NCBI RefSeq assembly: GCF_017873415.1
Contig: NZ_JAGGKD010000002.1
Coordinates: 186,001 to 250,000 of the forward strand
Length of the DNA stretch: 64,000 bases
DNA from: Methanolobus bombayensis
GTDB taxonomy: Archaea > Halobacteriota > Methanosarcinia > Methanosarcinales > Methanosarcinaceae
Direction: 5' to 3'
Within the stretch, counting starts at the first letter, position 1; every line of letters starts with the position of its first letter. The notes below the pieces were generated by a model that saw nothing but the letters and a program-made list of their open reading frames with translations, did no database searches and had not been told where the DNA came from. Below are positions 1-20,392 of the stretch, one piece after another. The position numbers and the translations under genes were made by a program.

Positions 1-1938
1 TTTCTTACCTTCAGGAATGATGATTTTGTTTCCTTCTTTCCTGAACAAACAATATCTCTTAGAGCTGATACCATAAAACCAGATGTCTTCCATTCCATCC
101 TCTATCTCAAGAATTGGTTTCTCAAAATCATAAGGATTTAATGAATCAAAGAGGTGGCTTAATTCGTCTGCAAGATGTGGAGGAACAAATATAGAGTCAG
201 TGTCCATATATGCATGAACTTCCCCTTTATCCATCACATATCTTTCAGCAATCGTAATTAACAAACGAGATCCTGCTGTAATGCATGCACCGATAATTGG
301 ATTGAAAAATGCCGCAGTTTCTTCAAATTTCCCTTTTGTTTCATAGTTAATATTGCTATATGCAGTCAAATTCTCCTCATCTTTTGGATGCATTTCTATA
401 TAAATTCCGTATGTAGTTGCATTATTGAGAATCTTAACTGCTTTTTGTTGACCATCAAGAACATCATACTCATGTGAATCCTTAGGGATTACTTTCATTT
501 TTTGTTTAATCTCTTGTCTACGTTCAACAAGGACTTTGATAAGATTATCTTCTTTTGGATTTACATGAACTCCATAGACCTCTGTTTCGTTGAGATCCTC
601 CTGAATGCCTTCAGGAATAAACTTAATAGCCCTCTTAATCTTTGGAGATTTACCAGTAAGCAACTTTGAAGCTAAAACATCGGGGAGGAAGTAAAACAGG
701 CTTTTGTCCCATGTTATTTTATTAATACCAATATTGAAGGTCGCATCCTTTTCCTTATACTTTGCTCTAACGGGAAAAATGTCTTCCTCAGGCTCAATTT
801 CAACAAGAACAACTAAATTCTTCCAGATATCGGGATTAAGTGTATCTTCTAACGTGGATGACTCTATTAATCTACGAACATTTTCTGTATCATCTGTATA
901 TTGAACACTTTTTGCTACAACAAATTTCCAGAGATCAAGGAGAAGTGTTACAGTTGGGTACATACTGAAAAAGTCCAGCACAGTAACCTTTGTAGGTGTT
1001 TTTCTTATCTTACACTCACATCGTCCTCCATAATATCCACTCATCAATTTTCCAAGGATTTCAGGAGAAAATTCGGGATTTTGATCCATGAAAGGTGTGA
1101 TGTTGCATTGCTTGAGTGCCTGTTTCCCAAGAGAAGCAGCAGAGTAAACATCAGTCATTGAAATGTTTAATTGATATCTTTCATGCTCCTGTCTTACTTT
1201 TTTGAATAGCTCGTATGTAGATTTTACATCTGTAATGTTATAAGCAATGTATTTTTGAGTTATCACACCGTGTTTCTTTGTTTTTTCCTTCTTTATTGGT
1301 GTATCAAATATCTTACAGGCATTTTCAAGATTAAGAGATTTGTTATCTGTCAAAATACAAGCTAACTTCTGTACATCCAGAAAATGTCCTTTGAATGTTT
1401 TTCCCTTCCTATACTTGCCTTTTGCTCTTGTGAATTCAATATTGAAAGATCTCCCTGTGAGATGCTTTATACGTATTCTAGGGTATGTTGTATCCTCAGT
1501 GAGTAAAAAAGAAAAACCATCTTTACCTGAGTACCTTCCATGACCATAGTCAAGAATGATCCGTGATAGATCAAAATTAAGGTTAAAACCGATACAGAGA
1601 GTTTTTCTTTCATAAACTTCTAGATAAAAGAGTCTAACGAACTCTTCAAGAGGAAACAAGCGTATGTTATGTTTTTCAGAGAATTTTATTAGTTCCTTAT
1701 GTTCTTTTTCTGAAACATGTCTCTCATCCCAGAAAAGTCCACCATAATGAAAAACATCATTCTCATGTACATCAAAGTAACCAAATTTTAAGTTAAGATA
1801 TTCATCAGCCGTTGTTTCTGTATCAAAAGTAAGAACTCTGGTAAATTCAGGAATTTCTTTCTCATATTTAAAATTACTCTTCTTTTTCTTTTTAGTTTCT
1901 TTTTTCGTAGGGTATGTTCGCAAAGCTAGTTTATTCAT
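1..1938 (-). CDS. Family B DNA polymerase of the casposon (partial, C-terminus outside window)
   Basis: About 646 codons are present and the frame runs off the left edge. I translated it by hand from the complement. It shows the 3'-5' exonuclease motifs FDTET near the start, then GFNLNFD, then YNITD. The polymerase motifs follow: DFFSMYP (motif A), KILNNATTYG (motif B), YMDTDS (motif C, two catalytic Asp) and SKRY after it. The basic N-terminus has a run of lysines. The start ATG overlaps the stop of the HNH gene (ATGA), so the two are translationally coupled. In casposons this enzyme is thought to replicate the excised element (family knowledge). It is divergent from the replicative archaeal PolB, and the mobile context rules out the housekeeping copy. 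Confidence 0.9.
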   Translation of the reverse strand, partial: MNKLALRTYPTKKETKKKKKSNFKYEKEIPEFTRVLTFDTETTADEYLNLKFGYFDVHENDVFHYGGLFWDERHVSEKEHKELIKFSEKHNIRLFPLEEFVRLFYLEVYERKTLCIGFNLNFDLSRIILDYGHGRYSGKDGFSFLLTEDTTYPRIRIKHLTGRSFNIEFTRAKGKYRKGKTFKGHFLDVQKLACILTDNKSLNLENACKIFDTPIKKEKTKKHGVITQKYIAYNITDVKSTYELFKKVRQEHERYQLNISMTDVYSAASLGKQALKQCNITPFMDQNPEFSPEILGKLMSGYYGGRCECKIRKTPTKVTVLDFFSMYPTVTLLLDLWKFVVAKSVQYTDDTENVRRLIESSTLEDTLNPDIWKNLVVLVEIEPEEDIFPVRAKYKEKDATFNIGINKITWDKSLFYFLPDVLASKLLTGKSPKIKRAIKFIPEGIQEDLNETEVYGVHVNPKEDNLIKVLVERRQEIKQKMKVIPKDSHEYDVLDGQQKAVKILNNATTYGIYIEMHPKDEENLTAYSNINYETKGKFEETAAFFNPIIGACITAGSRLLITIAERYVMDKGEVHAYMDTDSIFVPPHLADELSHLFDSLNPYDFEKPILEIEDGMEDIWFYGISSKRYCLFRKEGNKIIIPEGKK

Positions 1939-2285
1939 TCAATTCCCTCATAACTTTGTTTTAAAAGATCAATTTCAACTTCATCCATACGTTTTCTTAA
2001 TGCTGCATGTGTAAGCAAAATGTAGTTTATTCTCTTCTCTAGAGGTAATTTGCTTGATCTGAACTTAGGTGGTAATTCATTCTGAAAATGCGTTACAGCA
2101 GCGTGACAGTTCAGACACAGAACCCTTGTTTCATCCGAAAAGCCTCTTGTAGAAATGTGATGATTTTCGTAGATTTTCAGTGCATAAGGGTTGGTTTCTC
2201 CACAGATTTCACAGATACCATTTTTAACAAGCTGTTCATCCTTAGCTTGCTGTTTTATCTGCATAATGAAATCTTCGTTGGACAA
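1935..2285 (-). CDS. HNH endonuclease, casposon component
   Basis: This 116-residue protein carries a zinc-binding HNH fold. A CEIC pair lies near residue 25, NHH (ENHHIS) follows, and a second pair LCLNC comes before the final His of HAAVTHF. The basic, helical C-terminus probably contacts DNA. HNH nucleases are recurrent components of casposons beside PolB and Cas1 (established for the family). Their role in the transposition cycle is unproven. The gene sits in a four-gene leftward operon (RHH, HTH protein, HNH, PolB) and overlaps polB by 4 nt. Confidence 0.88.
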   Translation of the reverse strand: MSNEDFIMQIKQQAKDEQLVKNGICEICGETNPYALKIYENHHISTRGFSDETRVLCLNCHAAVTHFQNELPPKFRSSKLPLEKRINYILLTHAALRKRMDEVEIDLLKQSYEGIE

Positions 2286-2311: not shown

Positions 2312-2956
2312 TCAGATTCTGTTGTCGTATACTGGAAGAGATTCAGAATCCTCTACCTGTTCTTTAAGCTCATACAACTTGTCAAGATCAGTTTCAAGTG
2401 AGTATTCTTTACCATCTACTCCCCTTATCTTGACATCTTTAAATGGTTCAAGTAGGTTCTTATCCCCGTTTTTCACAGCAATTTTGACAATAGCCAGATA
2501 TCTACTGATAAGAGATCCATCCCTTGAGCTATTGACTACAACACTGATTCTTTTACCATTCGAGTAAATCCATCTACCTCTTTCAATGCTGTCTGTTTTT
2601 GTTGCAACCCATTTGCCATTCTTTTTGAATACAGCATTACCAAGATGTCTTAGAGCATCTTTTAAGCTGATTCCTTGCTGCTTTGCAGCTAAAGTAAGGT
2701 TTTTGCCTTTTCTTAGATCACTCAGAGCCAGAAGGGCTCTACTTCTCATGTCGACCTCTTCAGGAGAAAGCATAGCATAAGCTTTCAGAGCTGGAGATAC
2801 ATCCGATACTCTCATTTTACGGAGAGTGCTAAGTGTAGCTGAAGGGTTTAGCTTATGTTTTCTAATGATTTCTTTTGCATACCTGGTATCTCTTGGCATG
2901 GCTTTGAGCCATTCACCATAGGTTCTATACTCCTTAGAGAATCTTGGCCTGCTCAT
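2312..2956 (-). CDS. Helix-turn-helix protein of the casposon operon, function unknown
   Basis: The protein has 214 residues and is basic in its N-terminal half. A stretch around residues 85-105 (LTLAAKQQGISLKDALRHLG) has the alternation of a helix-turn-helix. The C-terminal half is beta-rich and acidic at the very end. No enzyme motif is visible. Its ATG overlaps the stop of the preceding ribbon-helix-helix gene (ATGA) and the HNH gene follows after 26 nt, so it belongs to the casposon operon. A DNA-binding accessory role in replication or regulation is an inference from position and the HTH-like segment. Confidence 0.75.
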   Translation of the reverse strand: MSRPRFSKEYRTYGEWLKAMPRDTRYAKEIIRKHKLNPSATLSTLRKMRVSDVSPALKAYAMLSPEEVDMRSRALLALSDLRKGKNLTLAAKQQGISLKDALRHLGNAVFKKNGKWVATKTDSIERGRWIYSNGKRISVVVNSSRDGSLISRYLAIVKIAVKNGDKNLLEPFKDVKIRGVDGKEYSLETDLDKLYELKEQVEDSESLPVYDNRI

Positions 2957-3263: not shown

Positions 3264-4124
3264 ATGAGTAAACAAGGAAAAAGCAAAGACTTAGATGAAA
3301 ATTTGAAAGAATACCTCTCTAGCTATGGAATTGTAAAGAGGGAAGATATTATAGATGCCTTTAGAGGTGAGCGCAGCGAAAGAACAATTATTAGACACTT
3401 AGAATACTTGAATGAAGCTGGATTCATAGTAAAATTGTCTGCTAAACAAGTCAAAAAATATGGTATCAATCCAACAGATTATCGTGAAAAGTACTTTTTG
3501 CTAAAGGAGAATACGGAAATAAAAAAGCATATTGATGCTGTCTTCAAACTCTTTAATGATTGTGATTCTGAAGCTAAAATAGCTGCTTTAGGGGAAATGG
3601 ATACTTATAGAAATTATTACATTTTAGAACCTTTGCAATTAGATATTCTGGTTAAAAATCTTAGTGAAAAGGACATTGAATTATCGTATCAACTAATGGT
3701 AGTTATTCACCACTATATTGTGGATAAAAATATTCAACCAAACGACATCAATTTACTGCTTACCAAGTTGAGATCGCTTTTGAAAAACATACCACCTATG
3801 TCTAAACAACGTCCTGTTCTTCGAGGAAATATTGTTGCCTTACTTTGCAAGTATAATGATGAGACTGTAATTGAACAACTTGTCCAAGATGCCGAAACAA
3901 TGGAAAACTTTGCAGATGTAAAAGACGAGTATGACAAACTATATGCTGCCAAGTTGATCGAAAAGAATAGAACGAAGCTTTTCAATCTTGAAATTGAGTT
4001 GAGAAATAAGGGTAAGCACAATAATGCCAAAGTTCTTTCTCAAATAAGGGATCAGGCAAGAAAGGGTATAGATATAGCGTTGCTTGATGGAAATGTTAAT
4101 ACTCTGGGGAGTGATCTTAAATGA
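3264..4124 (+). CDS. Winged-helix protein coupled to the casposase
   Basis: This 286-residue protein starts with a winged-helix domain (about residues 10-75: a helix SSYGIVKREDIIDAFRG, a recognition-helix-like RSERTIIRHLEYLNEAG, then a wing). The remainder, about residues 85-270, is all-helical and resembles repeated helical pairs. No catalytic motif is visible. Its stop overlaps the cas1 start (ATGA at 4121-4124), so the two are co-translated and probably act together. HTH proteins next to cas1 are known in Methanosarcinales casposons. Whether this one regulates expression or helps assemble the transpososome is unknown. Confidence 0.78.
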   Translation: MSKQGKSKDLDENLKEYLSSYGIVKREDIIDAFRGERSERTIIRHLEYLNEAGFIVKLSAKQVKKYGINPTDYREKYFLLKENTEIKKHIDAVFKLFNDCDSEAKIAALGEMDTYRNYYILEPLQLDILVKNLSEKDIELSYQLMVVIHHYIVDKNIQPNDINLLLTKLRSLLKNIPPMSKQRPVLRGNIVALLCKYNDETVIEQLVQDAETMENFADVKDEYDKLYAAKLIEKNRTKLFNLEIELRNKGKHNNAKVLSQIRDQARKGIDIALLDGNVNTLGSDLK

Positions 4125-5335: not shown

Positions 5336-5342
5336 TTTTGAT

Positions 5343-5374
5343 GGAGACATGTAGTCTCCTTTGTCTTTTCGTGC
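5343..5374 (+). terminator. Hairpin after the intact casposase gene
   Basis: A perfect inverted repeat GGAGAC-ATGTA-GTCTCC (5343-5359) is followed by a T-rich run. It lies 8 nt after the cas1 stop. The inverted copy at 19508-19535 keeps the hairpin with one G-U type change, which supports a function at the RNA level. It may end cas1 transcription before the opposing hsdS gene. Confidence 0.55.
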
Positions 5375-5390
5375 TATATTTAGGAGACAA

Positions 5391-5480
5391 TTCCAAGAGA
5401 CACAGGAGACAAATGTAGACGATAAACAAGAAACAAACACAACGGACAAAGCGACAGACTCAGGAGACAACTAAGAGACA
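5391..5480 (+). repeat. GAGACA-rich noncoding repeat tract, putative casposon end
   Basis: A 90 bp tract between two convergent genes contains repeated GAGACA/GGAGACAA units near 5394, 5404, 5463 and 5474, with degenerate AGACGATAAACA and GGACAAAGCGACAGACT units between. Spacing is irregular, so it is not a CRISPR. The motif also appears in the cas1 linker codons (5100-5175). Because the tract is kept in both casposase copies and ends both, it may hold casposase recognition sites. This is inference. Confidence 0.5.
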
Positions 5481-5482
5481 GA

Positions 5483-6865
5483 TTATTTTTTCTTTTTGTT
5501 TTTCATACTGCTCGCTCTCTCAGCTTTAATTCTCTCCAACAGCACTTCAGCAGACTCATAATCTCTACCTTCCAGTCTGGCAAGCTCAGCTTCAGTAGGT
5601 ACAAGCTCCCCTGAAAAAGCCTTTGCAAGAATAGATTGCCTGAGTTGATCTGACTTCTCTCTTGCTGCTGCAACCTTTGCTTCAATAGAATCTGCAAAAG
5701 CAAAGAGTACTTCAACTCTCCTGACAATTTCTATTTGCTCAGGAAGAGAAGGGAGAGGGATTTGTATTTTGTTTAAGCTTCCTTGGGTCAACTTTGGTTG
5801 AGCACTTCCAGTAATATAGTGCTGCAAATCAAAACCATTGAAGAAGATTTCTAAGTATTCTAGTGGAATATTGTCAATAGTTTGAACAATATGTGCATGA
5901 TTGTTTACCCAAAATTGTCCTTCTGCAATAAACGCGATAGGTGTATTTCTTGCTACTAGATTTGCTCCATCTTCAGATATCAATAAAAATTTACCCTCAA
6001 AAATGTAATCATCTATATAATCTATAATTCCTGAAGCTCCATAATAAGGGTATGAACCTTGCCTTTTTTTCCTGTCAGCAGACTTTAAAGGTATTCTCTT
6101 ACCATCTAGGTTATTTACTATTGATTTAAACGCTGCATATGTCCAACTAATAGGGAGATTCATGTCATTGTTTTCAGTAGTGTTTTTCGGTGATGATAAT
6201 GCTTCAACATGTTCATTGGAATTCCTCCAATCCTCTGTTAACCGTCCATCACAAGCAGCAGCTAATACCGCCTGTTTGAAAGTTTTCAGAACTTTTGGTA
6301 CATTATCAAGTCGCTCACGTGTTGCGTCTAAACGGGCAAAAAGTGTCTTGATTACTGCAACAATGCGCTGTTGTTCGGAAAGAGGAGGAAGAGGGATTAA
6401 TGTTTTTTGAACAAATTCTTTGGGTACACGCTTCTGTCCAACACTACCAGTCATATTTGCTTCTGCTAGCTTTCGGTAGGAATCTTGACGAATATAATGA
6501 TGAAGATAGTCAGGAACAATTGCACCATTGGAACGCAAAACAATGAATTCTGTGGACCCAAAACCTAAATTGTTTAGTAGGTTCCTTGCAATTGCTGTTT
6601 TCCCATTCTCCATACATGGAGTGATTTTTGCAAATATCACATCTTCATTTTGAAAAGCAGTATAACCTTTTCTGACTTCTGAAAATGTTCTAACTTCAGG
6701 AGCATTTATAGAACCAGAATCAGCATCAACTGCTGGCATTGGTACAAAAGTAACAGTAGTATCTGAGGGAACAGCACCTTGTTTAGGTTTGGACGGATTT
6801 ATTTCTAAAATGTCTTTTAAATAAGGTAATTCCCACCCTTCCGGCAGTTCACTCTTCTGTTGCAT
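5483..6865 (-). CDS. hsdS: Type I restriction-modification specificity subunit HsdS (system 1)
   Basis: This 460-residue protein has the two-fold layout of HsdS. Target recognition domain 1 begins LPEGWELPYLKDIL, and its conserved helix region starts at LPPLSEQQRIVAVIKTLFARLD. Domain 2 begins LPISWTYAAFKSIV, and its helix region starts at LPSLPEQIEIVRRVEVLFAFAD. The ending AKAFSGELVPTEAE is typical. It sets the bipartite DNA target for the HsdR2M2S complex. The start overlaps hsdM by 17 nt. The stop lies 2 nt from the end of the casposon-type repeat, so the island boundary is very tight. Confidence 0.95.
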   Translation of the reverse strand: MQQKSELPEGWELPYLKDILEINPSKPKQGAVPSDTTVTFVPMPAVDADSGSINAPEVRTFSEVRKGYTAFQNEDVIFAKITPCMENGKTAIARNLLNNLGFGSTEFIVLRSNGAIVPDYLHHYIRQDSYRKLAEANMTGSVGQKRVPKEFVQKTLIPLPPLSEQQRIVAVIKTLFARLDATRERLDNVPKVLKTFKQAVLAAACDGRLTEDWRNSNEHVEALSSPKNTTENNDMNLPISWTYAAFKSIVNNLDGKRIPLKSADRKKRQGSYPYYGASGIIDYIDDYIFEGKFLLISEDGANLVARNTPIAFIAEGQFWVNNHAHIVQTIDNIPLEYLEIFFNGFDLQHYITGSAQPKLTQGSLNKIQIPLPSLPEQIEIVRRVEVLFAFADSIEAKVAAAREKSDQLRQSILAKAFSGELVPTEAELARLEGRDYESAEVLLERIKAERASSMKNKKKK

Positions 6866-8273
6866 AGCCGTTCCCCATTAGGTCCAGAATTGCATTCAAC
6901 TCACTTACTGCGGCTTCAAGTTCATCTATTACCTCAGCTACAAGTTCTTCAGGTTCAGGTAAATCCTGTGTATCGCCTAGAGATTCATCCCTTAGCCATT
7001 TGAGCGAATCAATCTTGTAATTTCTTTCCGTGAGTTCGGAAATGTGGAATTTATGCCAGCGATTTTCCTGTGAGTCTTTTTCATTACGCTTCGCCCTACC
7101 GTTGGGTTCATCACCAAAGCATTTTTCAAACTCTTCAAAGTGTTCTTTGGTAAGTGGACGATCTTTCTTTGTGATCTTTGGAACATTTGTACGACAATCA
7201 TAGACCCAGGTATGTTCTGTGGGAATGCCTTTGGTAAAGAATATCACGTTTGTCTTTGTTCCGGGAGAATATGGTGTGAAAGTCCCATCAGGTAATCTCA
7301 AGACTGTATGTAGATCACAGTCTTCACAGAGCACCTTAAAAACTTCTCCTGCCTGATCTGCAAAAAGTACATTATCAGGTACTACAATAGCTGCTCTGGC
7401 TCCGGGTTTCAGAATGGTCATAACATGCTGGATGAAATTCAGTTGTTTGTTGGATGTCTCGACAACAAAATCTTCACGTCCGGGAGATTGATTTGCACCT
7501 CTTGTTCCAAAAGGAGGATTAGTGAGAACTACATCAAACTTTTTAGATTCAGGTATCTCATAAATGGAGTCCCCCAGTTTGATTTCAGGTTCAATACCAT
7601 GCAAATACAGATTCATAAGAGCTAACCGGCGAGGACGTTCCACAAGCTCCTGTCCATAGTAGGTATTGTGGCGGATACGCTTTGCAAGGTCACGGTCCAC
7701 AGCACCTCCAGCGGTAACCTCCTTTAACCACTCATAGGCAGACACAAGAAAACCACCTGTACCACATGCAGGGTCCATTATAGCAAACTCCCTACTGGCG
7801 CGTGGGTCTGGTTGCATGCATCTTACGATCATCTGGATAACTATACGTGGAGTGAAATACTGCCCTGCACCCTTTTTACCTTCACTAGCTGCCTTTTCCA
7901 GTAATCCCTCGAAAGCCATTGCTTTTACATCAATGTCAAGTCCTGTCCACTCAGTCTCATCTATAAGCGTGATCATCTTTTTAAGACTTACAGGGTTATG
8001 GAAACGAGAGAGAGCACCTGCAAAGATGTCACCAAGAAGCCCTTCCTGCTTACCAAGAGTTCTCAATGCATCACTATAATGCTCTGTAAGTTCTGTACCA
8101 GATTGTTCTTTCAGGGATTGCCAGTCACAGGCTTCAGGCATTTTAATGCCTCTTTCATCAGCCATTTTCAGAAATAACAGGTAAGTGATTTGCTCAATAT
8201 AATCTCCATAATCAATACCTTCATGCCTTAAGGTGTGGCAAAAACCCCATAGTTTTTGTACAATATCGCTCAT
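6849..8273 (-). CDS. hsdM: Type I restriction-modification methyltransferase HsdM (system 1)
   Basis: This 474-residue N6-adenine methyltransferase has an N-terminal helical domain (MSDIVQKLWGFCHTLRHEG). The SAM-binding motif DPACGTGGFL follows GAGQYFTPR, and the catalytic motif IV is NPPFGTRG. It methylates the host site in complex with HsdS and protects DNA from HsdR. The ATG overlaps the hsdR stop (ATGA) and the 3' end overlaps hsdS, giving an hsdR-hsdM-hsdS operon. It is different in sequence and length from the second HsdM (17824-19377), so the two systems are not a duplication. Confidence 0.96.
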   Translation of the reverse strand: MSDIVQKLWGFCHTLRHEGIDYGDYIEQITYLLFLKMADERGIKMPEACDWQSLKEQSGTELTEHYSDALRTLGKQEGLLGDIFAGALSRFHNPVSLKKMITLIDETEWTGLDIDVKAMAFEGLLEKAASEGKKGAGQYFTPRIVIQMIVRCMQPDPRASREFAIMDPACGTGGFLVSAYEWLKEVTAGGAVDRDLAKRIRHNTYYGQELVERPRRLALMNLYLHGIEPEIKLGDSIYEIPESKKFDVVLTNPPFGTRGANQSPGREDFVVETSNKQLNFIQHVMTILKPGARAAIVVPDNVLFADQAGEVFKVLCEDCDLHTVLRLPDGTFTPYSPGTKTNVIFFTKGIPTEHTWVYDCRTNVPKITKKDRPLTKEHFEEFEKCFGDEPNGRAKRNEKDSQENRWHKFHISELTERNYKIDSLKWLRDESLGDTQDLPEPEELVAEVIDELEAAVSELNAILDLMGNGYATEE

Positions 8274-10948
8274 GCTGCAACTGCCCTGTTAAATTCAGAT
8301 ATCAAAGTTATAAGTTCACCTTCAAAAACACGGTTGGCTCTGTTCCATCCACCGTGATCGGCAAACACTGGAATATAATCAAAGTCCTCTTTATCGATAG
8401 AGAGGTTCGCTATCAGGTGTGCTTTGATGCGTTCTAACCATAAAAGCTGATCTGTTGTGAAACTCTTCCCCATTGTAACCTTAGAAAAGGCATTGCTTAC
8501 ACGCTCTTCTGCTGTTAGTAAAGCTTCTTCTTCAGAGGCAGCATGTTTTATCATTGAGATAATGTCTACAAGAGCTTTACTATATTTGACTTCATGAGCT
8601 CGCTGAAGATTCTCAACTGTAAACCTTTGCTGTGAGGATTCCAGTTTTTTCTTCAGCTCTTCAAGAGCATCTGTACTCCATTCCTGTGGTCGATTAAGAA
8701 GAATACTAATAGCAGATATCTTTTCAGGGTTTTCTTTCACAAACTCAGAGAACATTTCAAGATAATCATCAGGTTTATACTCGTTACCTGAAGCATCTCT
8801 TACTATCCATGTAGATGAAACTGCATCCCTTTCTCCATAATCTACTAAGAAAGTCTTCTTTGGCCTTGGATAGTTCTCAAGTAGATTCAAAAAGTCTTTG
8901 TTCCGCAAGATTGCCATAGTTCCGGTAAGATCTTCTTCAAGCCTTCTTTCAAGAGAAATAGCAAAGCTCTTGAGATCACCGTTTTCGACAAAAGCACTGA
9001 ACATATCACGTGCTTCCCCACTCATCTCTTTGTCTATCCTGTTGAGACGCTTTGTTAGAATGCGTGTGTTATATTTCCTATCCCGGTTATTCCAAATATC
9101 CTCAATAACCTTACTAATAGGCTTAACTTGTTTTTGTGGAGGTTCCGCTGTCACACCTGTAACGGATTTGAAATAATCAATAAGTGTTCCTGCAAAGCAA
9201 TCAAAGACAACAAAATGGGACTTATCAGGATAGTGTTCACCCTTCCTAGTTCCTCTTCCCATCATTTGCTCAAAGAGAATTCTTGATTTAACAGATCTCA
9301 AGAAAACAATATATTCAAGATCAGGAACGTCAACTCCTGTTGAAAGAAGATCAACGGTCACAGCAATTCCAGGCATATTTCTGTTTCTGAATTCTCTTAT
9401 CCTTTGCAAAGGCCGATCTACCTTACCTGTAATCTTCTGAACAAAAGAATCTCCTCTACCAAAAACATCTCTTGCAAGGTCAACAATTTGATCAGCATGA
9501 GAAGTAAAAGCTAAATCATTCACAGCAAAAATCAGAGTCTTTGGGAAACGTCCATATTTCTTTTCATGCTCATCCGAATAGCGTTTTATCTCTTCAAGGA
9601 TCTTCCTGTTTGAATCAATAGACGTTATCTCTCGTTCTATTTTCTCCGCTGAAAACTCTCTTTCATCCTCAAGCATGTCAATATCACGAAGCCCAGTTTC
9701 AGGATCAATAACTTCGACAGCTTCCCCTTCATGAAGGAAAATACCGTTCATACGAACTCCGGATTCCAAAGCTACAATATCATAATCAACAAGATAACCT
9801 TCCCTTACAGCCTGTTCATAGCTGTACTTGAAGACAATATCTTTGAAATATGCAGAAGTGTGAGCAGCAGGAGTAGCTGTAAGTCCTATTTTTATAGCGT
9901 CAAAATGGTCAAGTGTCTTTCTCCAAGTAGAGATCTCCTGAGCAGAATAACCTCTATGACATTCATCAGCGATAATTAGATCAAAAGCATGAATTGGAAT
10001 ATCCAACTGACTTACATCTTCATCCTCACTCTCATCACAACATGAAAATACAGATGTTTTCCCAAACAAGTTAATAGTCATTCGCTGTATTGTGGAGACA
10101 TATACAAAACTATGTTCTGTTTTAGGATCGGTCAGGTAAGATTCAGGCATAGCATTTACATCAAAGTTCTCGTCTTCACCAAGGTCTCCACGCTGAAAAC
10201 GCTGACTATAAACTTCATATGTTTTATCAAACTTTAGACCTTGTTCCGTTTCAAAAGATGAAAAAGCCCTTACAGCCTGTGCAGCAAGTGCCCGTCTATC
10301 CACTAAGAACAATACTCTCTTAGCAACACCTGCTTTCATTAACCGATAGATGAGATTTACAACAGTAAATGTTTTCCCGGTTCCTGTGGCCATTGCAAGC
10401 ATCATTGTTCTTTTCTTACTATCAATGGCCTCCCCGATAGAGTCACATGCTTCACATTGGTATGGTCTCATCTTCTGATTATCTGGAATAGAAAAGAAGT
10501 TGGTTGTTGCAGTATCAACATCAAAGTTTATCATTTCAACTAGAGCTTCAGGTGTATGAAAACTTGATATTTTTCTTGAACGATTTAAAGGATCACGAAC
10601 ATCATGATGCCAAATTTCTGTACCATTTGTTGAATATAAGAAAGGAACTTTAAAACTATCAAAATTAAACTCACTATCAGATACCCCTTTTGAGTATCTT
10701 TCTGCCTGTGTTAGGACACTTTGTGGACCTAAAGTAAGTTTTTTGGCTTCAATTATTCCAAGTATTTTTCCATCCACACATAACGCATAATCAGCGGGAC
10801 CATTAGAAGTGGGATATTCTCCAATTGCACATTTATTGTACTCTGATAATTCTTTTTTGTCACCATAAAGTACAACTTTCCAACCTTCTGCAGCCAGCAA
10901 AGGATCAATGAGTTTTTTCCTTGTCTGTTTTTCAGTGAGATCTTGCAT
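8270..10948 (-). CDS. hsdR: Type I restriction endonuclease/translocase HsdR (system 1)
   Basis: The protein has 892 residues. A PD-(D/E)xK nuclease site is present: D53 in PADYAL, then E67 and K69 in IIEAKK. The SF2 motor follows: Walker A ATGTGKT (187-193), DECH (328-331), GLTATP, and a C-terminal helicase half with STGVDVPDLE and QMMGRGTR. A helical C-terminal region would contact HsdM/HsdS. It is the first gene of the operon. It cuts unmethylated foreign DNA after ATP-driven translocation. All motifs are intact, so the system is probably active. Confidence 0.96.
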   Translation of the reverse strand: MQDLTEKQTRKKLIDPLLAAEGWKVVLYGDKKELSEYNKCAIGEYPTSNGPADYALCVDGKILGIIEAKKLTLGPQSVLTQAERYSKGVSDSEFNFDSFKVPFLYSTNGTEIWHHDVRDPLNRSRKISSFHTPEALVEMINFDVDTATTNFFSIPDNQKMRPYQCEACDSIGEAIDSKKRTMMLAMATGTGKTFTVVNLIYRLMKAGVAKRVLFLVDRRALAAQAVRAFSSFETEQGLKFDKTYEVYSQRFQRGDLGEDENFDVNAMPESYLTDPKTEHSFVYVSTIQRMTINLFGKTSVFSCCDESEDEDVSQLDIPIHAFDLIIADECHRGYSAQEISTWRKTLDHFDAIKIGLTATPAAHTSAYFKDIVFKYSYEQAVREGYLVDYDIVALESGVRMNGIFLHEGEAVEVIDPETGLRDIDMLEDEREFSAEKIEREITSIDSNRKILEEIKRYSDEHEKKYGRFPKTLIFAVNDLAFTSHADQIVDLARDVFGRGDSFVQKITGKVDRPLQRIREFRNRNMPGIAVTVDLLSTGVDVPDLEYIVFLRSVKSRILFEQMMGRGTRKGEHYPDKSHFVVFDCFAGTLIDYFKSVTGVTAEPPQKQVKPISKVIEDIWNNRDRKYNTRILTKRLNRIDKEMSGEARDMFSAFVENGDLKSFAISLERRLEEDLTGTMAILRNKDFLNLLENYPRPKKTFLVDYGERDAVSSTWIVRDASGNEYKPDDYLEMFSEFVKENPEKISAISILLNRPQEWSTDALEELKKKLESSQQRFTVENLQRAHEVKYSKALVDIISMIKHAASEEEALLTAEERVSNAFSKVTMGKSFTTDQLLWLERIKAHLIANLSIDKEDFDYIPVFADHGGWNRANRVFEGELITLISEFNRAVAA

Positions 10949-11081
10949 TGGAATTCCTCGGTACTCTTAGTAAGTAAACTTCACAAGATATTCTATTTAT
11001 GTATATAAATAAGTTCATATTGATAGTTATTCAAAAAACAATAACAAAAAAATAATAAGTATAAATAACATTATTAGTGAT

Positions 11082-11294
11082 ATGTTTTCAGATGACGAAT
11101 CTTTTAATGTATTTGTAATATTTCTTGTAGTGATCTTCGGTGTTTTTGGTGGGATGATATTATTAAACTTTTTGACAACTCCACAAACCGGAGACATTGC
11201 TGGACATTCAGTTACAATGCCAGGAATAGCTTGGATTGGGCTACCTGCATTTGCCATAATTGTATTGATACTTTATGTAAAAAATAGGATGTAG
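11082..11294 (+). CDS. Small two-helix membrane protein
   Basis: This 70-residue protein has hydrophobic segments at about 9-29 (FVIFLVVIFGVFGGMILLNF) and 48-65 (WIGLPAFAIIVLILYV), with a polar loop between. GTGA lies just before the ATG. It stands alone between the two restriction operons on the opposite strand to hsdR. No family is recognised. An overlapping leftward frame of similar size looks less protein-like and was rejected. A role in the defence island is only positional inference. Confidence 0.5.
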   Translation: MFSDDESFNVFVIFLVVIFGVFGGMILLNFLTTPQTGDIAGHSVTMPGIAWIGLPAFAIIVLILYVKNRM

Positions 11295-11361
11295 AAGTAG
11301 ATTTCAAAAGGCTATTATTCAAATTATTGGAAATAGTAAGAATAGTTATTTATTAACATCT

Positions 11362-12456
11362 TCAGCACTTCAAACTCAATTTATTTGCTATTTCATCTAC
11401 AGTTTCGGCTGTTAAAATTGGATTGCCTTTTTTAATATATAAATTAACAGCATTATACGATAATACTTTAATATAACGATTTTTTCCAAAAGGAATTTTG
11501 GAGCCAACTACTGCAATTATAGATTTTACTTTTACTTCATCTTCAGCTAAATTGTAGTAGATTCTTTGGAGTGTACTTCCATATTTGTTATTGTTTAAAT
11601 AACGATATACAAGATAACCACTTCTTTGAATCTGGTCAAATGGAGTATAAGACCCATCATTAAAGACAGCTTGTGTATAATTTTTACTCCAATTCTTTGT
11701 TTCAATTACGTATACTCCAGTGGGACCTACTACAAGATGATCTATTTGAGCAGATTTCAAAGATGAGCCTTTAAACCTTATGTAATCACTTAACTCAAGG
11801 TATAAATCATTAAATAGATAATAATTATCAGAAAGTTCACATAAGTTTTTAATAACAGCTAATTCTCCTAAAGCTCCCTTATATTCATTTGATTTCTTTA
11901 TCTCTTTTAATTTACTAAGTTGTGACACTAAGTCGGATAGCCTAGATTTAACTTCGTTATCTGTATTGTTTTCTAGATAGTTTAATTGACGTTTTAAAGA
12001 TTCAAGTGACGACTGTGAACCTTCAAGTCGTTTGTTTATTTCAATCTCGACATCTGTTTCCAAGTGGTTTAATTTCTTAATAGAACTACGCAACCTTAAT
12101 TTGCTTGAAAAGTAATTAAGCAAGTGCTTTATTTCAAAGCTAATTGACTGTAATTCTTCTATTTCTTTTTTTAAGTTTTCAGTTTCTATTTCAATATCTT
12201 TCCTAACCTGAGATTTTTGTAATTCTAGAGTATTTTCAGCAGTTTCAATGTTTATCTTTAAGCCGTCTATTTCTAATTTAATTTGATCATAGATTATTGG
12301 CTTTTTTTCTTCGTATTGTTCTTTAATATTCTTCAGAATAAAATCTATTTCAGTTAAGCTCTCTATTGAAAATCCTTCTTTTTGGACAAGATTTATTAAA
12401 TCTTTTTCCGCTCCTGACTTCCCATATTGAACTACCACAGAAAATACACCTTTCAA
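11362..12456 (-). CDS. NERD-domain nuclease-like protein with long coiled coil
   Basis: The protein has 364 residues. Residues about 40-190 are a charged heptad-like coiled coil rich in E, K and L. The C-terminal half is a NERD (nuclease-related) domain: GALGELAVIKNL, then AQIDHLVVGPTGVYVIETKNW, where the Asp of QIDH and the E-x-K of ETK match a PD-(D/E)xK-type core. NERD proteins are frequent in defence islands and plasmids, with a suspected DNA-processing role. It is monocistronic, between two type I systems. Biochemical activity is not established. Confidence 0.85.
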   Translation of the reverse strand: MKGVFSVVVQYGKSGAEKDLINLVQKEGFSIESLTEIDFILKNIKEQYEEKKPIIYDQIKLEIDGLKINIETAENTLELQKSQVRKDIEIETENLKKEIEELQSISFEIKHLLNYFSSKLRLRSSIKKLNHLETDVEIEINKRLEGSQSSLESLKRQLNYLENNTDNEVKSRLSDLVSQLSKLKEIKKSNEYKGALGELAVIKNLCELSDNYYLFNDLYLELSDYIRFKGSSLKSAQIDHLVVGPTGVYVIETKNWSKNYTQAVFNDGSYTPFDQIQRSGYLVYRYLNNNKYGSTLQRIYYNLAEDEVKVKSIIAVVGSKIPFGKNRYIKVLSYNAVNLYIKKGNPILTAETVDEIANKLSLKC

Positions 12457-12731
12457 CTATTAATTTAAAAATTATTTCTAACATACATTTTTGAATATAT
12501 CTATCTTTAGAATAATTTTATAGTTCTATATATGTACAAAAGTTTATAACTTTTTTTATTTAAATTATAGATATTCTAATGGAAATAAAATTCATGATAA
12601 TGATATTTTTGTATAAAATAAATGATAGGTAGAAATTTGCTCTTCAAAAGCGTACACTTTTTTTACGTTATATATATCCCCGCACCTGCGCATTGGGTAA
12701 TAGGTATCTTGAATTTTAGATACGCAGAATT
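12457..12731. other. AT-rich intergenic region
   Basis: I see no coding frame here. Runs such as TATATATGTACAAAAG and TTTTTTACGTTATATATATCCCC could hold a promoter for the NERD gene (toward the right edge of that gene) and a terminator for the HEPN-like gene. No structured RNA was recognised. Confidence 0.4.
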
Positions 12732-13619
12732 TTAGGATGTTAAATTCTCGATTGACTCTTTAATTTCTTTCATTTTATCTAGCAAATCGAAAAAGTTACC
12801 CTCTTCTAAAAATGTGAGAAGTAAATAACAATAAAATCCATAAAGACTGTAAAAAATATTCCTTACAGTTTCTACTCCATAAGACTTATTCCCAAAAATT
12901 AGCTTTTTTGAATCACTTTCATAATAGTAATCAGCATGAGCAATTTTATTTCTAATATAAGAGTCTTGAATAATACTACAATTCCATCCATTCAAGAAAT
13001 CTTGTGTGTTTAAAAAATTGATTAACTCGCCTCTAGAAAGTGTCATATCATTCATTTTTCTTTTTCTGTATAACTTACAGAATTTCTTAGATTCTCCATC
13101 TTCTCTTCTCTGTTTATAAGCTATTTTTTGAGTGATATCTACTAAAAAGTGGATTGTCAATTCATAGATTTGCACATAAGCTGTTAGTATCTGGTTTAAT
13201 GTGAATTCAACTGAAAGATCAACGTAGCTGATTTTATCCATATCGCTAGCAATTTGATGTAAATTCCAGATTTTAGGAAAATGGGACCATGAATTATTAC
13301 CAAGTCCGTTTCCATTCGTCTTACTATAAAGTTGAGTTATTAATCTATCAATAAAATCTATGCATTGTGAATCTAATTTTTCACTTTGTACAACTAAGTC
13401 ATCTGAAAAAGATATGAAATTGTCATAAACACATGAAATCCAATTACAAAATTCTTCTAGATTGTTGGGGTAATTTGCCTCAAATTCCTCATCAACCAAT
13501 TGCATAAAGGTAGTTGGAATTTTTATATTTAATTCGGATTCAATATCATTAAAGCGTTTAACAATTTCATCCTTGGCTTTTGGCTTAAGCTTTTTAAATG
13601 CTTCTGAATCTACACTCAT
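12732..13619 (-). CDS. HEPN-like protein, candidate RNase effector
   Basis: The protein has about 295 residues from the internal start at 13619, which is preceded by CAGGAAAC. An upstream in-frame start at 13676 would overlap the previous gene. It is mostly helical. Near the C-terminus is YIRNKIAHADYYYE, matching the R-N-x3-H (Rx4-6H) signature of HEPN ribonucleases with the polar residue after Arg. A helix rich in aromatic residues follows (NIFYSLYGFYCYLLLTF). HEPN domains are common effectors in toxin-antitoxin and abortive-infection systems. It forms a two-gene unit with the upstream membrane protein. Assignment rests on the motif and helical context only. Confidence 0.55.
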   Translation of the reverse strand: MSVDSEAFKKLKPKAKDEIVKRFNDIESELNIKIPTTFMQLVDEEFEANYPNNLEEFCNWISCVYDNFISFSDDLVVQSEKLDSQCIDFIDRLITQLYSKTNGNGLGNNSWSHFPKIWNLHQIASDMDKISYVDLSVEFTLNQILTAYVQIYELTIHFLVDITQKIAYKQRREDGESKKFCKLYRKRKMNDMTLSRGELINFLNTQDFLNGWNCSIIQDSYIRNKIAHADYYYESDSKKLIFGNKSYGVETVRNIFYSLYGFYCYLLLTFLEEGNFFDLLDKMKEIKESIENLTS

Positions 13620-13641
13620 GTTTCCTGTTTTTCCTTTTTCG

Positions 13642-14001
13642 TTAAAAGGTGAATAGCAAAATAACTCCGATAGCATAAATCACAAGAGACTTTTCATCTG
13701 TATATTTCCAATTTTTAACAGAATTGTTTACTGCGGACATACCCACTATTATAACTGCACCTAACATATTTAGCAATGAAAATTGTGGTGTAATACCTTG
13801 CCAAAACTCTTCTACAAATAAAGTGATATATCCACTTAGAGGAATTGAAATCAGAAAGATTAAAAGGGCTTTCTCTTTACTGCAAAATTTCCCCCCACTG
13901 TTAAATGAATAAGCTGTGGCTGTATAGAAAATACCACCAAAAAGTGCCATTGTAGAACCTGTAAGCATGAGATCCAGATTTTCTTGAATTAAATCAAGCA
14001 T
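13642..14001 (-). CDS. Four-helix membrane protein paired with the HEPN-like gene
   Basis: This 119-residue protein has about four hydrophobic segments (residues 13-31, 44-62, 76-92 and 104-119) and no recognised family. It lies 22 nt upstream of the HEPN-like gene in the same direction, so they are probably co-transcribed. A membrane partner next to a possible RNase effector resembles sensor or effector pairs in defence islands (inference). The gene starts near the divergent promoter shared with hsdR of system 2. Confidence 0.6.
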   Translation of the reverse strand: MLDLIQENLDLMLTGSTMALFGGIFYTATAYSFNSGGKFCSKEKALLIFLISIPLSGYITLFVEEFWQGITPQFSLLNMLGAVIIVGMSAVNNSVKNWKYTDEKSLVIYAIGVILLFTF

Positions 14002-14144
14002 ATAAAGAAATTATGCTTCAAATTTAAATAAATATGTATTATCAATAAAATATGATAATCAAGACTGTTTAGTCACATGAGCTTTATTTAAACATAAGAA
14101 ATTTATAATTTATTGCACAATTCTTACTGCACAATAATTTATTG

Positions 14145-16514
14145 ATGGTAAAAATGGGATATAACGAAGCAGACACCAGAGCTAAGCTTATTGATCCACA
14201 ACTTCATTTAATCGGTTGGAAAGAGGATCTTATTAGACGTGAAACTACTGCTGGTGCTGTTGAAATTATAAACGGCAAAACAAAAAGGAAAAGTGGTAAA
14301 GCTGATTATCTTTTGTGCTTGCCAGCAGCTAAAGGTGAAAGTCCTTTACCTGTGGCAGTTATTGAAGCTAAAAAAGAAGATGAATTTGCAGATCTTGGAA
14401 TTGATCAAGCCAAAGAGTATGCAAAATACCTTCATGTTCCTTTTGTGTTTTCAACAAATGGACATCTTTTTGTGTCCTATGATGCTTTTAGTAAACAGTT
14501 TAGCAAGGAACTTCCCCTTGACAAATTCCCTACACCTGAGTTCTTGAAGTCTCACTATGAATGTGGAAAAGGATTATCCCTTGATGATGACGCCTCAAAA
14601 CCTCTTCTTGTACCATATAAAGGTGGGCAATCTGAAAGACGCTATTATCAGGATGCAGCTATTAGAGCTACGTTTGAAAAGATTGCTTCAAAGCAGGATA
14701 AATGGAATAGAGTTTTATTATCTCTTGCTACCGGATCTGGTAAAACAAGGATTGCTTCTCAGATACTTTATAAGCTTGCTGAAACGGGACAACTCAGAAA
14801 GGCTTTGTTTGTCTGTGACAGAAACGAATTAAGAAAACAAGGCTTTGGTCGAATGTTTGCTGTATTTGGTGATAATGCAGACTTTGTGGAAAATAAAGAT
14901 CCAAAGAAGAATGCTCGTATTATTGTTTCAACTTATCAGGCCCTTGGTATTGATGATGAAGGGGATGAATCGTTTTTCCTTGAACATTTCCCAAAGAACT
15001 ACTTTAGCCACATTATTATTGATGAGTGCCATAGAAGTGCTTGGAACAAGTGGAGCATTGTTCTGAAAAACAACCCTGATGCAGTGCAGATTGGCTTGAC
15101 GGCTACGCCAAGGCAGATTAGTGGAGGCAGTTCCGATGAGAGGGGAAAGGATGAGGAAATCAGCCAAAATAATATAGAGTATTTTGGTGAGCCTGTTTAT
15201 GAATATCCATATCATAAAGGATGGGAAGACGGTTATCTTGCAGCCTGTGAGATTGTTAAAAGACAACCTGATATTGATGGTAGGATTCTCAGTGGACAGG
15301 AAATTATTGATATGGGTGCTAGGGATGCAAAGACAGGTAACCTACTGACAATTCATGATACAAGAGAAGCTTATGGCAAGAAAAATTATGAAAGGGATCT
15401 CATTCTACCTGACAGAGTTAAAGCCATGTGTAAAGATCTGATGAATATGTTTGAGGAAACAGGTGGTCTCAAACAGAAAACAATTATATTCTGTGTAAAT
15501 GACAAACATGCAGGTGATGTGGCCAACACATTAAACAATCTCTATGTTGAAAGAAGATTACCGGAATGTGAGAAATTTGCTTTCAAGTGTACTCAAAAAG
15601 GTATCTCAGCAGGAACTCTTGGTGAATCTCAGGAAGTGCTTATTGCAAACATGAGGGGGAGTCAAAACTCTCATTTCATAGCAACAACTGTTGACTTACT
15701 AACAACAGGCGTTGATATTCCTTGTATTCAAAATATTGTATTCTTTAGTTATGTTAATTCACCCATCCAGTTCTACCAAATGGTAGGCCGTGGAACTAGA
15801 ATTGATGAAGGTTTTAATAAGTATATGTTCAGGCTCTATGATTACACTAATGTCACAAGACTCTTTGGTGAAGAATTTATTTCCAATCCAAGGTCTGCTC
15901 CTTCAAAGCCTTCAAAAAAAGGTGCAAGTGACAAAAGAAAGATTGCAAAGGTTCAGGGCTATGAAGTGGAGATTAAGGATGAAGGAACTTTTATCTTGAT
16001 GCGTGATGATGCCACAGGAAAAGAAAAGCCTGTAACTATAGAGGAATATAAAGAGCAATTAGCAGCTTCTCTTGTTGATCAAGCAAGGGACATAGATCTC
16101 CTAAGGGAAATGTGGATTAATCCTGAAGATAGAAAACATCTGGTTTCAGCCCTACCAGGTGGCAATCAAGGTGCATATCTATTGCGAGAATTGCTTGAAT
16201 TGGATGATTGTGATCTTTTTGATTTATTCGCAGAAATTGGGTTCGGTGTTCCGGCCAAGACAAGGGATGAAAGAGTTGAAGCATTTGATTACAAAAACAA
16301 AGACTGGTTAATGAGTTTGCCGTCTGATTCTTCAGAAGTAATCAAAGCATTGGCGGACCAGTTTAGAGAAAATGGTATTGAAGAACTGGAACGCAAAGAT
16401 GTTTTTAATGTCCCTTCTGTGAAAGTTGCTGGTGGCATAAGAGCCCTTGGAAAGATTGGAGTGAGGGTAAGTACTCTAATCAGTGATGTAAAAGAAAAGT
16501 TGTTGGCTGCTTGA
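14145..16514 (+). CDS. hsdR: Type I restriction endonuclease/translocase HsdR (system 2)
   Basis: This protein of about 789 residues begins with a PD-(D/E)xK nuclease: KADYLLC, then VAVIEAKK (E-x-K). The SF2 motor follows, with SLATGSGKT, IIIDECHRSAW, GLTATPRQ, TTGVDIP and QMVGRGTR. It is about 100 residues shorter than HsdR of system 1 and differs throughout, so it belongs to another HsdR subfamily (EcoEI/DEAD-type, by recollection of the family). A second possible start lies at 14154. It leads an hsdR-hsdS-hsdM operon. Confidence 0.95.
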   Translation: MVKMGYNEADTRAKLIDPQLHLIGWKEDLIRRETTAGAVEIINGKTKRKSGKADYLLCLPAAKGESPLPVAVIEAKKEDEFADLGIDQAKEYAKYLHVPFVFSTNGHLFVSYDAFSKQFSKELPLDKFPTPEFLKSHYECGKGLSLDDDASKPLLVPYKGGQSERRYYQDAAIRATFEKIASKQDKWNRVLLSLATGSGKTRIASQILYKLAETGQLRKALFVCDRNELRKQGFGRMFAVFGDNADFVENKDPKKNARIIVSTYQALGIDDEGDESFFLEHFPKNYFSHIIIDECHRSAWNKWSIVLKNNPDAVQIGLTATPRQISGGSSDERGKDEEISQNNIEYFGEPVYEYPYHKGWEDGYLAACEIVKRQPDIDGRILSGQEIIDMGARDAKTGNLLTIHDTREAYGKKNYERDLILPDRVKAMCKDLMNMFEETGGLKQKTIIFCVNDKHAGDVANTLNNLYVERRLPECEKFAFKCTQKGISAGTLGESQEVLIANMRGSQNSHFIATTVDLLTTGVDIPCIQNIVFFSYVNSPIQFYQMVGRGTRIDEGFNKYMFRLYDYTNVTRLFGEEFISNPRSAPSKPSKKGASDKRKIAKVQGYEVEIKDEGTFILMRDDATGKEKPVTIEEYKEQLAASLVDQARDIDLLREMWINPEDRKHLVSALPGGNQGAYLLRELLELDDCDLFDLFAEIGFGVPAKTRDERVEAFDYKNKDWLMSLPSDSSEVIKALADQFRENGIEELERKDVFNVPSVKVAGGIRALGKIGVRVSTLISDVKEKLLAA

Positions 16515-16617
16515 ATATGTTCAATCAAGTCACTTGCAAACTGTTTTATTCTTCAGTGTTATATTAAGGCCAAATTCAATATGCAGCTTAAAGTATGAAT
16601 TAACTGGAAGTTCTAAA

Positions 16618-17820
16618 ATGGGAAAAGAAAAATTACCTGATGGGTGGAAATGGAGAAAGTTAAGTGATGCTGCTAAAATTATTATGGGTCAGTCACCACC
16701 AGGTACATCTTATAATCAAAAAGGCGATGGTGAACCATTTTTACAAGGAAAAGCAGAATTTGGAGAAATTTCACCAAACAACATACAATATACTACTGAA
16801 CCAAAGAAGATGGCTCCTATGGGTAGTGTTTTGATTTCTGTAAGGGCTCCTGTAGGCGATGTGAACGTTTCAAACATGGATTACTGTATAGGTCGTGGTT
16901 TGGCTTCAATTTCTCTTTGCAATGGTGATAATTTGTTTCTTTATTACTTATTGCAATACCTAAAACCAGAGTTAGAAAATAATTCAACAGGATCGACGTT
17001 TAAATCAATATCGAAATCTCATTTGTCCAATTTAGTTATCCCTATACCTCCTCTTGATGTTCAACAAGAAATTGTTATTAAAATTCATAATCAAATAGAA
17101 GAAATTAAACGAATAAAAGAGAGAGTTGAAGGAAACCTAAAAGCTGCTAGTGATTTGAATAATGCATATTTAAAAGGGATCTTTGAAGAAGTGATTACAC
17201 AGAATTATCCCGTAATTAAATTAAAGAAATTAACATCAAAAATAGGAAGTGGGTCTACTCCACGGGGAGGTAAATCCGTTTATCTAGATGAAGGGATCCC
17301 TTTTGTACGGAGTATGAATGTTCATTTTAATTCTTTCAAAAAAGAGGGATTAGCTCATGTTTCAAAAGAAATTGATGCTTCTATGAAAAATACCCGAGTT
17401 AGGAAAGATGATGTTCTTCTTAACATTACAGGTGCTTCAATTGGAAGAGTATGTGTAGTCCCTGATGAAATGTGTCCGGCTAATGTCAATCAGCATGTAA
17501 GTATAATTAGGACAAATAAGGACCTGATCCCACAATATTTATCTTACTATATATCAAATCCAAATTGTCAAAAATTCATAATGGCTTCAGAATCAGGAGC
17601 AACAAGACAAGCTTTGACAAAAACTAAAATTGAAAATTTTGATATTCCTCTTCCGCCTTTTGAAACACAACAACAGATTGTTGAGCAATTAAATGAGATT
17701 AATGAATTGTCAAAAATATTGATGAATCAAATTAATAGTCAACTTGAGGCTGTTAATAAACTTCCTGCATCAATCCTAAACGAAATATTCGGAAAATACG
17801 AAATCCCAGAGAAGGTTTAA
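16618..17820 (+). CDS. hsdS: Type I restriction-modification specificity subunit HsdS (system 2)
   Basis: The protein has 400 residues from the ATG at 16618. The frame is open back to 16534, but the HsdS-type beginning LPDGWKWRKLSDAAKIIMGQ supports 16618. Two target recognition domains are each followed by a conserved helix: IPPLDVQQEIVIKIHNQIEE and LPPFETQQQIVEQLNEINEL. The second domain begins KLTSKIGSGSTPRGG. It shares no obvious domain sequence with HsdS of system 1, so the two systems should recognise different sites. It sits between hsdR and hsdM, a different gene order from system 1. Confidence 0.93.
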   Translation: MGKEKLPDGWKWRKLSDAAKIIMGQSPPGTSYNQKGDGEPFLQGKAEFGEISPNNIQYTTEPKKMAPMGSVLISVRAPVGDVNVSNMDYCIGRGLASISLCNGDNLFLYYLLQYLKPELENNSTGSTFKSISKSHLSNLVIPIPPLDVQQEIVIKIHNQIEEIKRIKERVEGNLKAASDLNNAYLKGIFEEVITQNYPVIKLKKLTSKIGSGSTPRGGKSVYLDEGIPFVRSMNVHFNSFKKEGLAHVSKEIDASMKNTRVRKDDVLLNITGASIGRVCVVPDEMCPANVNQHVSIIRTNKDLIPQYLSYYISNPNCQKFIMASESGATRQALTKTKIENFDIPLPPFETQQQIVEQLNEINELSKILMNQINSQLEAVNKLPASILNEIFGKYEIPEKV

Positions 17821-17823
17821 ATC

Positions 17824-19377: not shown

Positions 19378-19396
19378 GTTTCAATCATTTATTTTG

Positions 19397-19535
19397 TGTC
19401 TCTTACTTGTCTCCTGAGTCTGTCTCTTTGTCCTTTGTGTCTGTCTTATGTCTATCGTTTGCATTTGTCTCCTGTGTCTCTTAGAATTGTCTCCTAAATT
19501 ATGGCATGAGGAGACAAAGGAGACTACGTGCCTCC
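19397..19535 (-). repeat. Inverted copy of the GAGACA-rich tract and hairpin
   Basis: Read on the minus strand, this tract repeats the left tract (5343-5480) almost unit for unit, including TTTAGGAGACAATTC, AAGAGACACAGGAGACAAATG and GACTCAGGAGACAA. The hairpin at 19519-19535 is GGAGAC-TACGT-GCCTCC on the plus strand. Similarity ends at TGTCTC (19397-19402), next to the hsdM stop. The tract is the inward-facing end of the second casposon fragment. Confidence 0.75.
19508..19535 (-). terminator. Hairpin after the truncated casposase
   Basis: The stem is GGAGGC-ACGTA-GTCTCC as read on the minus strand, then a T-rich run (TTTGTCTCCTC). It is equivalent to the hairpin after the intact copy. The one stem difference leaves a G-U pair in RNA. 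Confidence 0.5.
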
Positions 19536-19542
19536 ATCAAAA

Positions 19543-20390: not shown

Positions 20391-20392
20391 AC

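Follow-up and report, generated by a model that had tools for sequence, protein, structure and literature searches.

An internal array of GACA repeats spanning the cas1 3′ end in one clade of archaeal casposons

Our analysis of a 64,000-nucleotide stretch of the Methanolobus bombayensis genome (the window, G000:C2:186001-250000) revealed an array of GACA motifs at the 3′ end of the cas1 gene of a family-2 casposon. The array begins in the linker codons of cas1, is interrupted over the HTH codons and continues beyond the cas1 stop codon, right at the meeting point of the casposon core and a variable defence cargo (Table 1). Judging from sequence comparisons, there is good evidence that the motif is maintained, in the casposase clade that bears the flanking tract, by selection on the nucleic acid itself. 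Kept by cas1 codon choice and continuing past the stop codon, it constitutes a concrete and testable internal casposon site. As to its function, we tentatively propose that it may be an iteron-like array of direct repeats in DNA, bound by an element-encoded protein.

Table 1. Features of the two casposons; positions are those of the window unless a contig is named
Feature	Position	Strand	Remark
Tract, copy 1: GACA-motif array downstream of cas1, with a T-rich arm (hairpin at 5343-5359) followed by direct units of ARGMGACA type	5343..5480	+	
ARGMGACA-type motif within cas1 linker codons	5104..5172	+	six GACA, kept at synonymous positions
cas1, family-2 casposase, 404 aa	4121..5335	+	stop codon 5333-5335
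Partner gene, winged helix and ARM/HEAT-like repeats, candidate array reader	3264..4124	+	structure model
Divergent putative HTH gene, casposon core	2312..2956	-	assigned by position, no Pfam match above cut-off
HNH-like gene, casposon core	1935..2285	-	weak; Pfam matches below threshold
B-family DNA polymerase (PolB), N-terminal part in window	1..1938	-	whole gene L035:5243-7939
Casposon 1 cargo: hsdS, hsdM, hsdR, NERD gene	5483..12456	-	
Left TIR of casposon 1, GGGATATATATAACGTAAAAAAAGTGTACGCT	begins G000:C2:183458, upstream of window		directly after CGCACCTGCGCATT
Right TIR of casposon 1	12649..12680	-	inverted copy of left TIR
Right TSD, CGCACCTGCGCATT	12681..12694	+	14/14 against left copy, G000:C2:183444-183457
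Inverted casposon remnant: TIR GGGTAATAGGTATC..., RM cargo, tract, truncated cas1	12695..20392	-	
Tract, copy 2	19397..19525	-	
cas1 copy 2, 5′-truncated, 246 aa	19543..20283	-	

The tract in the cas1 3′ flank was first described, in a sequence-only reading, as a run of irregular GAGACA units. GAGACA occurs in it six times and GACA eight times, always on the cas1 strand. The hexamer count is far above the Markov-1 expectation (mean of 0.52) and was reached in none of 5,000 shuffles, and the eight GACA had a P value of 0.005. Within the entire 64 kb, the densest 140-bp intervals were the tract (8 GACA) and the cas1 linker (7), the highest count in 100 Markov sequences of 64 kb being 6; in the inverted copy, the opposite strand carries 10 GACA per 140 bp at 19363 and 7 at 19705. 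The same reading had correctly placed the start of the tract right after cas1 and the end of the homology at 5480, and the hexamer that it reported in the linker codons was found there four times. The units are spaced irregularly (4 to 41 bp), and helical phasing was not seen. When 17 tracts were taken together, we counted 123 GACA versus 25 TGTC, the latter lying chiefly in the T-rich arm behind the stop codon. Alignments between linker and tract, which tested the tract as a duplication of the linker, exceeded order-1 shuffles and mostly did not exceed order-2 shuffles.

Two candidates were rejected. The tract is not a hidden coding sequence, as its in-frame QET-like peptide is not kept and the related casposons of G004 and G006 carry stops and frame changes. 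Neither does it reflect a genome-wide GACA motif, since triple-GACA clusters are no commoner than a reversed control in Methanolobus genomes; in the source genome, 12 of the 52 such clusters sit in the two casposon arrays. Short tandem repeats elsewhere in this genome (GTAGACAACTTT/GTAGACACTTT at G000:C4:239224-239275 and 271040-271090) are seemingly unrelated to the casposon array.

The case for selection rests largely on the linker. We compared GACA counts over residues 325 to 353 with those in sampled sequences that encode the same residues at the local codon frequencies. The tract-bearing copies (n = 14) showed 4.93 GACA versus 1.79 expected, the other copies (n = 49) 0.90 versus 1.03. The excess in the two window copies had P values of 0.003 and 0.0005, to be read with the reservation that the sequences are related, so that per-sequence P values are not independent, and that the region was picked because it was striking. 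Among tract-clade sequences, third positions at which a synonymous choice completes a GACA had a minor fraction of 0.013, compared with 0.216 for the remaining degenerate sites (Mann-Whitney test, P of 0.003). Furthermore, linker and tract have the flanking consensus ARGMGACA in common, with A-R-G-(A/C) preceding GACA, and CGAC occurs 37 times in the linkers versus 3.3 expected. The HTH-domain codons between the two clusters contain almost no GACA, and in a sliding-window count the linker peak was unequalled by any further casposon or host gene tested. Weighing against selection, the whole tract changes at about the synonymous rate between more diverged pairs (0.32 versus 0.34). Because of the linker excess, the near-invariant synonymous sites and the motif common to linker and tract, we infer a cis site acting at the nucleic acid level. 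To this extent the earlier suggestion of cis-acting units holds, whereas their supposed location at an element end does not.

The element was assigned to the family-2 casposons because it combines a full-length 6OPM-like cas1 with, upstream and partly beyond the window, an HTH-like ORF, an HNH-like ORF, PolB, an ApeA-type gene and then tRNA-Leu; the partner gene directly precedes cas1. The cas1 product aligned from end to end with the M. mazei casposase, PDB 6OPM (residues 1-403, phmmer E value of 1e-191), the catalytic motifs LLEAE, GFLHE and YDLQEP align with those of 6OPM, and the C-terminal HTH extension is present. PolB comprises 898 aa (PF00136, E value of 1e-7), and the HNH-like and divergent HTH ORFs occupy the positions expected in a family-2 casposon, with sub-threshold Pfam scores only. 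Mapping of TIRs and TSDs gave a length of 15,223 bp, with identical 32-bp TIRs (32/32) and a 14-bp TSD; tRNA-Leu(TAA) adjoins the left TSD copy, the target being the tRNA-Leu 3′ end. The sequence-only reading had placed the tract at both ends of the casposase element. However, the TIRs with their perfect TSDs lie approximately 7.2 kb to its right and 7.9 kb to its left, and the presumed second end turned out to be a truncated, inverted, tandem casposon whose tract is also internal. The cargo of casposon 1 consists of anti-phage defence genes, with an ApeA/HEPN gene on the PolB side (L035:3598-4941) and a Type I RM system plus NERD gene on the cas1 side. The region 5483-19377 contains two adjacent, complete Type I RM systems.

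Directly after the right TSD of casposon 1, a TIR of a second type opens the oppositely oriented remnant, and the two inverted tracts are therefore internal parts of two tandem casposons. The cas1 gene of the remnant is cut off on its 5′ side against trkH at 20393. The inverted arms pair over 799 nt at 78% identity (4583-5381 with 19497-20295) and over 103 nt at 89% identity (5378-5480 with 19397-19499), and the homology ends at 5480, which leaves 2 bp to the hsdS stop codon and, on the other side, about 20 bp to the hsdM stop codon. Between the cas1 copies, identity climbs from about 60% to 92% toward the 3′ end; the last 45 codons are 92% identical and the tract is about as similar. The claim that the tract is as conserved as the coding region is thus accurate for the 3′ third of cas1 but not elsewhere. 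An intact casposon accompanied by a nearby inverted, 5′-truncated second one was seen in three species (window 12695-20392; L049 and L050 in G019; L052 in G022). The 3′ end of trkH (window 20393-21838) abuts the tRNA-Leu block in G009 and G011 (L103, L104). In the source genome, trkH lies across both casposons from tRNA-Leu, and this locus has therefore been rearranged.

When approximately 90 distinct cas1 3′ ends were compared, the tract was seen behind those from a single casposase clade, whose proteins mostly terminate in ...KLVAN. A phylogeny of 26 full-length casposases places it in one supported clade of 13 (100/96), G022 and G074 having apparently lost it, and its hosts are Methanolobus, a sister genus (G028, G076, G080) and one Methanohalophilus. 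A tract profile search of 27 Methanolobus genomes yielded 17 matches, all directly 3′ of a cas1 end or of a degraded remnant, and an alignment of twelve tracts gave a shared core of about 55 nt, GGAGACAAATGCAnnCGACAGACAAGAGACAGACACAAnGGACAAAGCGACAGAC. Weaker, GCGACA-type tracts with a different partner were found in G008 and G028. The tract is also internal in six further casposons mapped with perfect TSDs (G004, G006, G015, G019, G002 and G028), and two tract-less casposons were mapped with perfect TSDs as well (G022, G033). The proposed check of other cas1 3′ flanks for the hexamer thus gave a divided answer, one clade carrying it while the Methanosarcina casposons and other Methanolobus clades examined are without it. 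Since these tract-less elements have a near-identical HTH, the tract does not occur wherever the same Cas1 DNA-binding domain does. A search of plasmids and phages for the casposase returned distant CRISPR-type Cas1 only. Methanosarcinaceae genomes also hold very many cas1 remnants, nearly all of which retain the 3′ (HTH) end without the 5′ part, some still as open ORFs of about 100 aa; their apparent starts at residues 341 to 356 were not read as breakpoints, because local alignments stop at the domain border.

Conservation ends with the tract; the cargo beyond it varies by species and occurs in either orientation. Two casposons, in G004 (L043, 2492-17058) and G015 (represented also by L057 of Methanolobus sp. 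Soudan_28, about 16.3 kb), have mismatched TIRs yet perfect 14-bp TSDs; they are apparently chimeras that still transposed, which suggests that one casposase can move mismatched ends. The G015 element joins the casposon-1 core of the window (87%) to casposon-2 cargo (84-86%) and to a casposon-2-type TIR that adjoins a perfect TSD, the structure expected if the two inverted cas1 3′ ends had recombined in an ancestor resembling the window. As cargo switches there in G015 and two casposons have mismatched TIRs, we conclude that cargo has been exchanged near the cas1 3′ end, and the climb in cas1 identity toward the joint is as expected if exchange occurs there. The same joint would then be the site where homologous recombination swaps cargo and distal TIR between casposons, and a joint so mapped explains how different defence cargos come to stand behind the same casposase.

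Exchange at the joint might be all that the tract serves, with the cas1 3′ end and tract persisting as homology for cargo swaps and the repeats binding nothing specific. The chimeric elements and the identity gradient described above would fit such a reading, but homology alone leaves a repeated motif at synonymous positions unexplained, and tract-less casposons differ in cargo too, so that we consider it rather improbable. Neutral growth of short repeats by slippage, spread by descent, would account for the irregular units, the differing copy lengths and the single origin on the tree; it is improbable given the codon-level signal, the near-invariant synonymous linker sites and the positionally conserved core. 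The original proposal, that the units are casposase binding sites at the element end, drew on multiple conserved units beside the casposase gene and is now scarcely credible: the true ends, 7 to 8 kb off, have unrelated TIR sequences, every mapped element that bears the tract has it in its interior, and the Cas1 HTH domain differs so little between elements with and without a tract that binding specific to the casposase is unlikely.

A role in RNA has to be weighed against the hairpin that opens the tract, previously taken as a sign of RNA-level selection. The hairpin (GGAGAC-atgta-GTCTCC) is real and copy 2 retains pairing by G-U. However, it is present in 8 of the 17 tract copies, its variation is limited to one-sided G-U changes, and compensatory changes were not found across these copies; 29% of the 147-nt stretches of the window contain a perfect 6-bp stem. 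The tract folds no better than shuffles (z-scores of -1.1 and -1.6), and an Rfam match to it was not found. For these reasons we rejected a conserved RNA hairpin under selection. More broadly, GACA repeats in the 3′ end and UTR of the cas1 mRNA could bind a protein, an RNase or an antisense RNA that sets casposase output. The sense-strand orientation of the units, coding end included, suits such a site just as well as a DNA array, but T-rich, terminator-like sequence separates the stop codon from the main array, which may therefore not be transcribed, and with the fold and Rfam results it appears unlikely, though a serious contender. A transcription terminator or insulator between core and cargo would suit the position directly after cas1, the T-rich arm and the several cargos that converge on the tract; roughly half of the cargos are codirectional, however, and the motif in the linker codons would be unexplained, which makes this reading very improbable.

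We tentatively prefer, as a possibility with somewhat less than an even claim, that the array is bound by an element-encoded protein as DNA, because the repeats stand in a single orientation beside a gene for a DNA-binding protein. The best candidate reader would be the winged-helix/ARM protein encoded just upstream of cas1. Its winged helix and ARM/HEAT repeats were predicted with good confidence (pLDDT of 84), and a fold search gave no match below an E value of 0.001. One partner clade (99/99) accompanies a strong tract in 7 of 7 intact loci; this co-occurrence is only suggestive and may be hitch-hiking, since partner, cas1 and tract are physically linked, and the different partner beside the weaker tracts of G008 and G028 tells against it. 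Bound to the array, the reader would regulate or organise the casposon through cas1 expression or through folding or replication of the excised circle, and the array would act internally, not as a marker of the casposon ends. One unexplained casposon HTH protein would thereby gain a possible job. That array and partner form a clade-specific cis/trans system promoting exchange of cargo plus distal TIR, which would make casposons defence-island assembly platforms, is a decidedly speculative extension.

Iteron arrays of plasmid origins and internal activating sequences of transposons are clustered direct repeats beside the gene for a DNA-binding protein. The window array would be like them in manner of working only, being an internal cluster of direct repeats with a motif of about 8 bp, and it differs in its irregular spacing, its partial location in coding sequence and the candidate status of its binder. 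Casposons are the proposed ancestors of CRISPR adaptation, and the array resembles a CRISPR array or leader in having repeats next to a cas1 gene; we rejected this identity, as the units measure 6 to 9 bp, regular spacers are absent and no other cas genes lie alongside. The closest known elements are family-2 casposons such as M. mazei MetMaz-C1 (PMC6977970, PMC10359463, PMC4046053), with a casposase bearing a C-terminal HTH, PolB, candidate HNH-like and HTH genes, TIRs beginning GGGATATA, a 14-bp TSD beginning CGCA and the tRNA-Leu 3′ end as target. In contrast to MetMaz-C1, the window casposon carries Type I RM, ApeA-type and NERD cargo, and its relatives can have different TIR types on the cargo and PolB sides; unlike the Methanosarcina casposons examined, its GACA array spans the cas1 3′ end. 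Cis-acting casposon sites other than the ends do not seem to be described in the literature searched, nor is an internal GACA array, that literature excluding the 2016 survey of M. mazei casposons. Provisionally, an internal, clade-specific, selected GACA array is therefore new to casposons.

Across 17 mapped entries, representing 16 distinct casposons (L057 repeats G015), TIR similarity tracked PolB and the divergent HTH protein (rho of 0.63 to 0.65), followed Cas1 less closely (0.36) and did not follow the partner (0.13). These correlations suggest that the casposon ends co-evolve with the polymerase-side module and not with the casposase.
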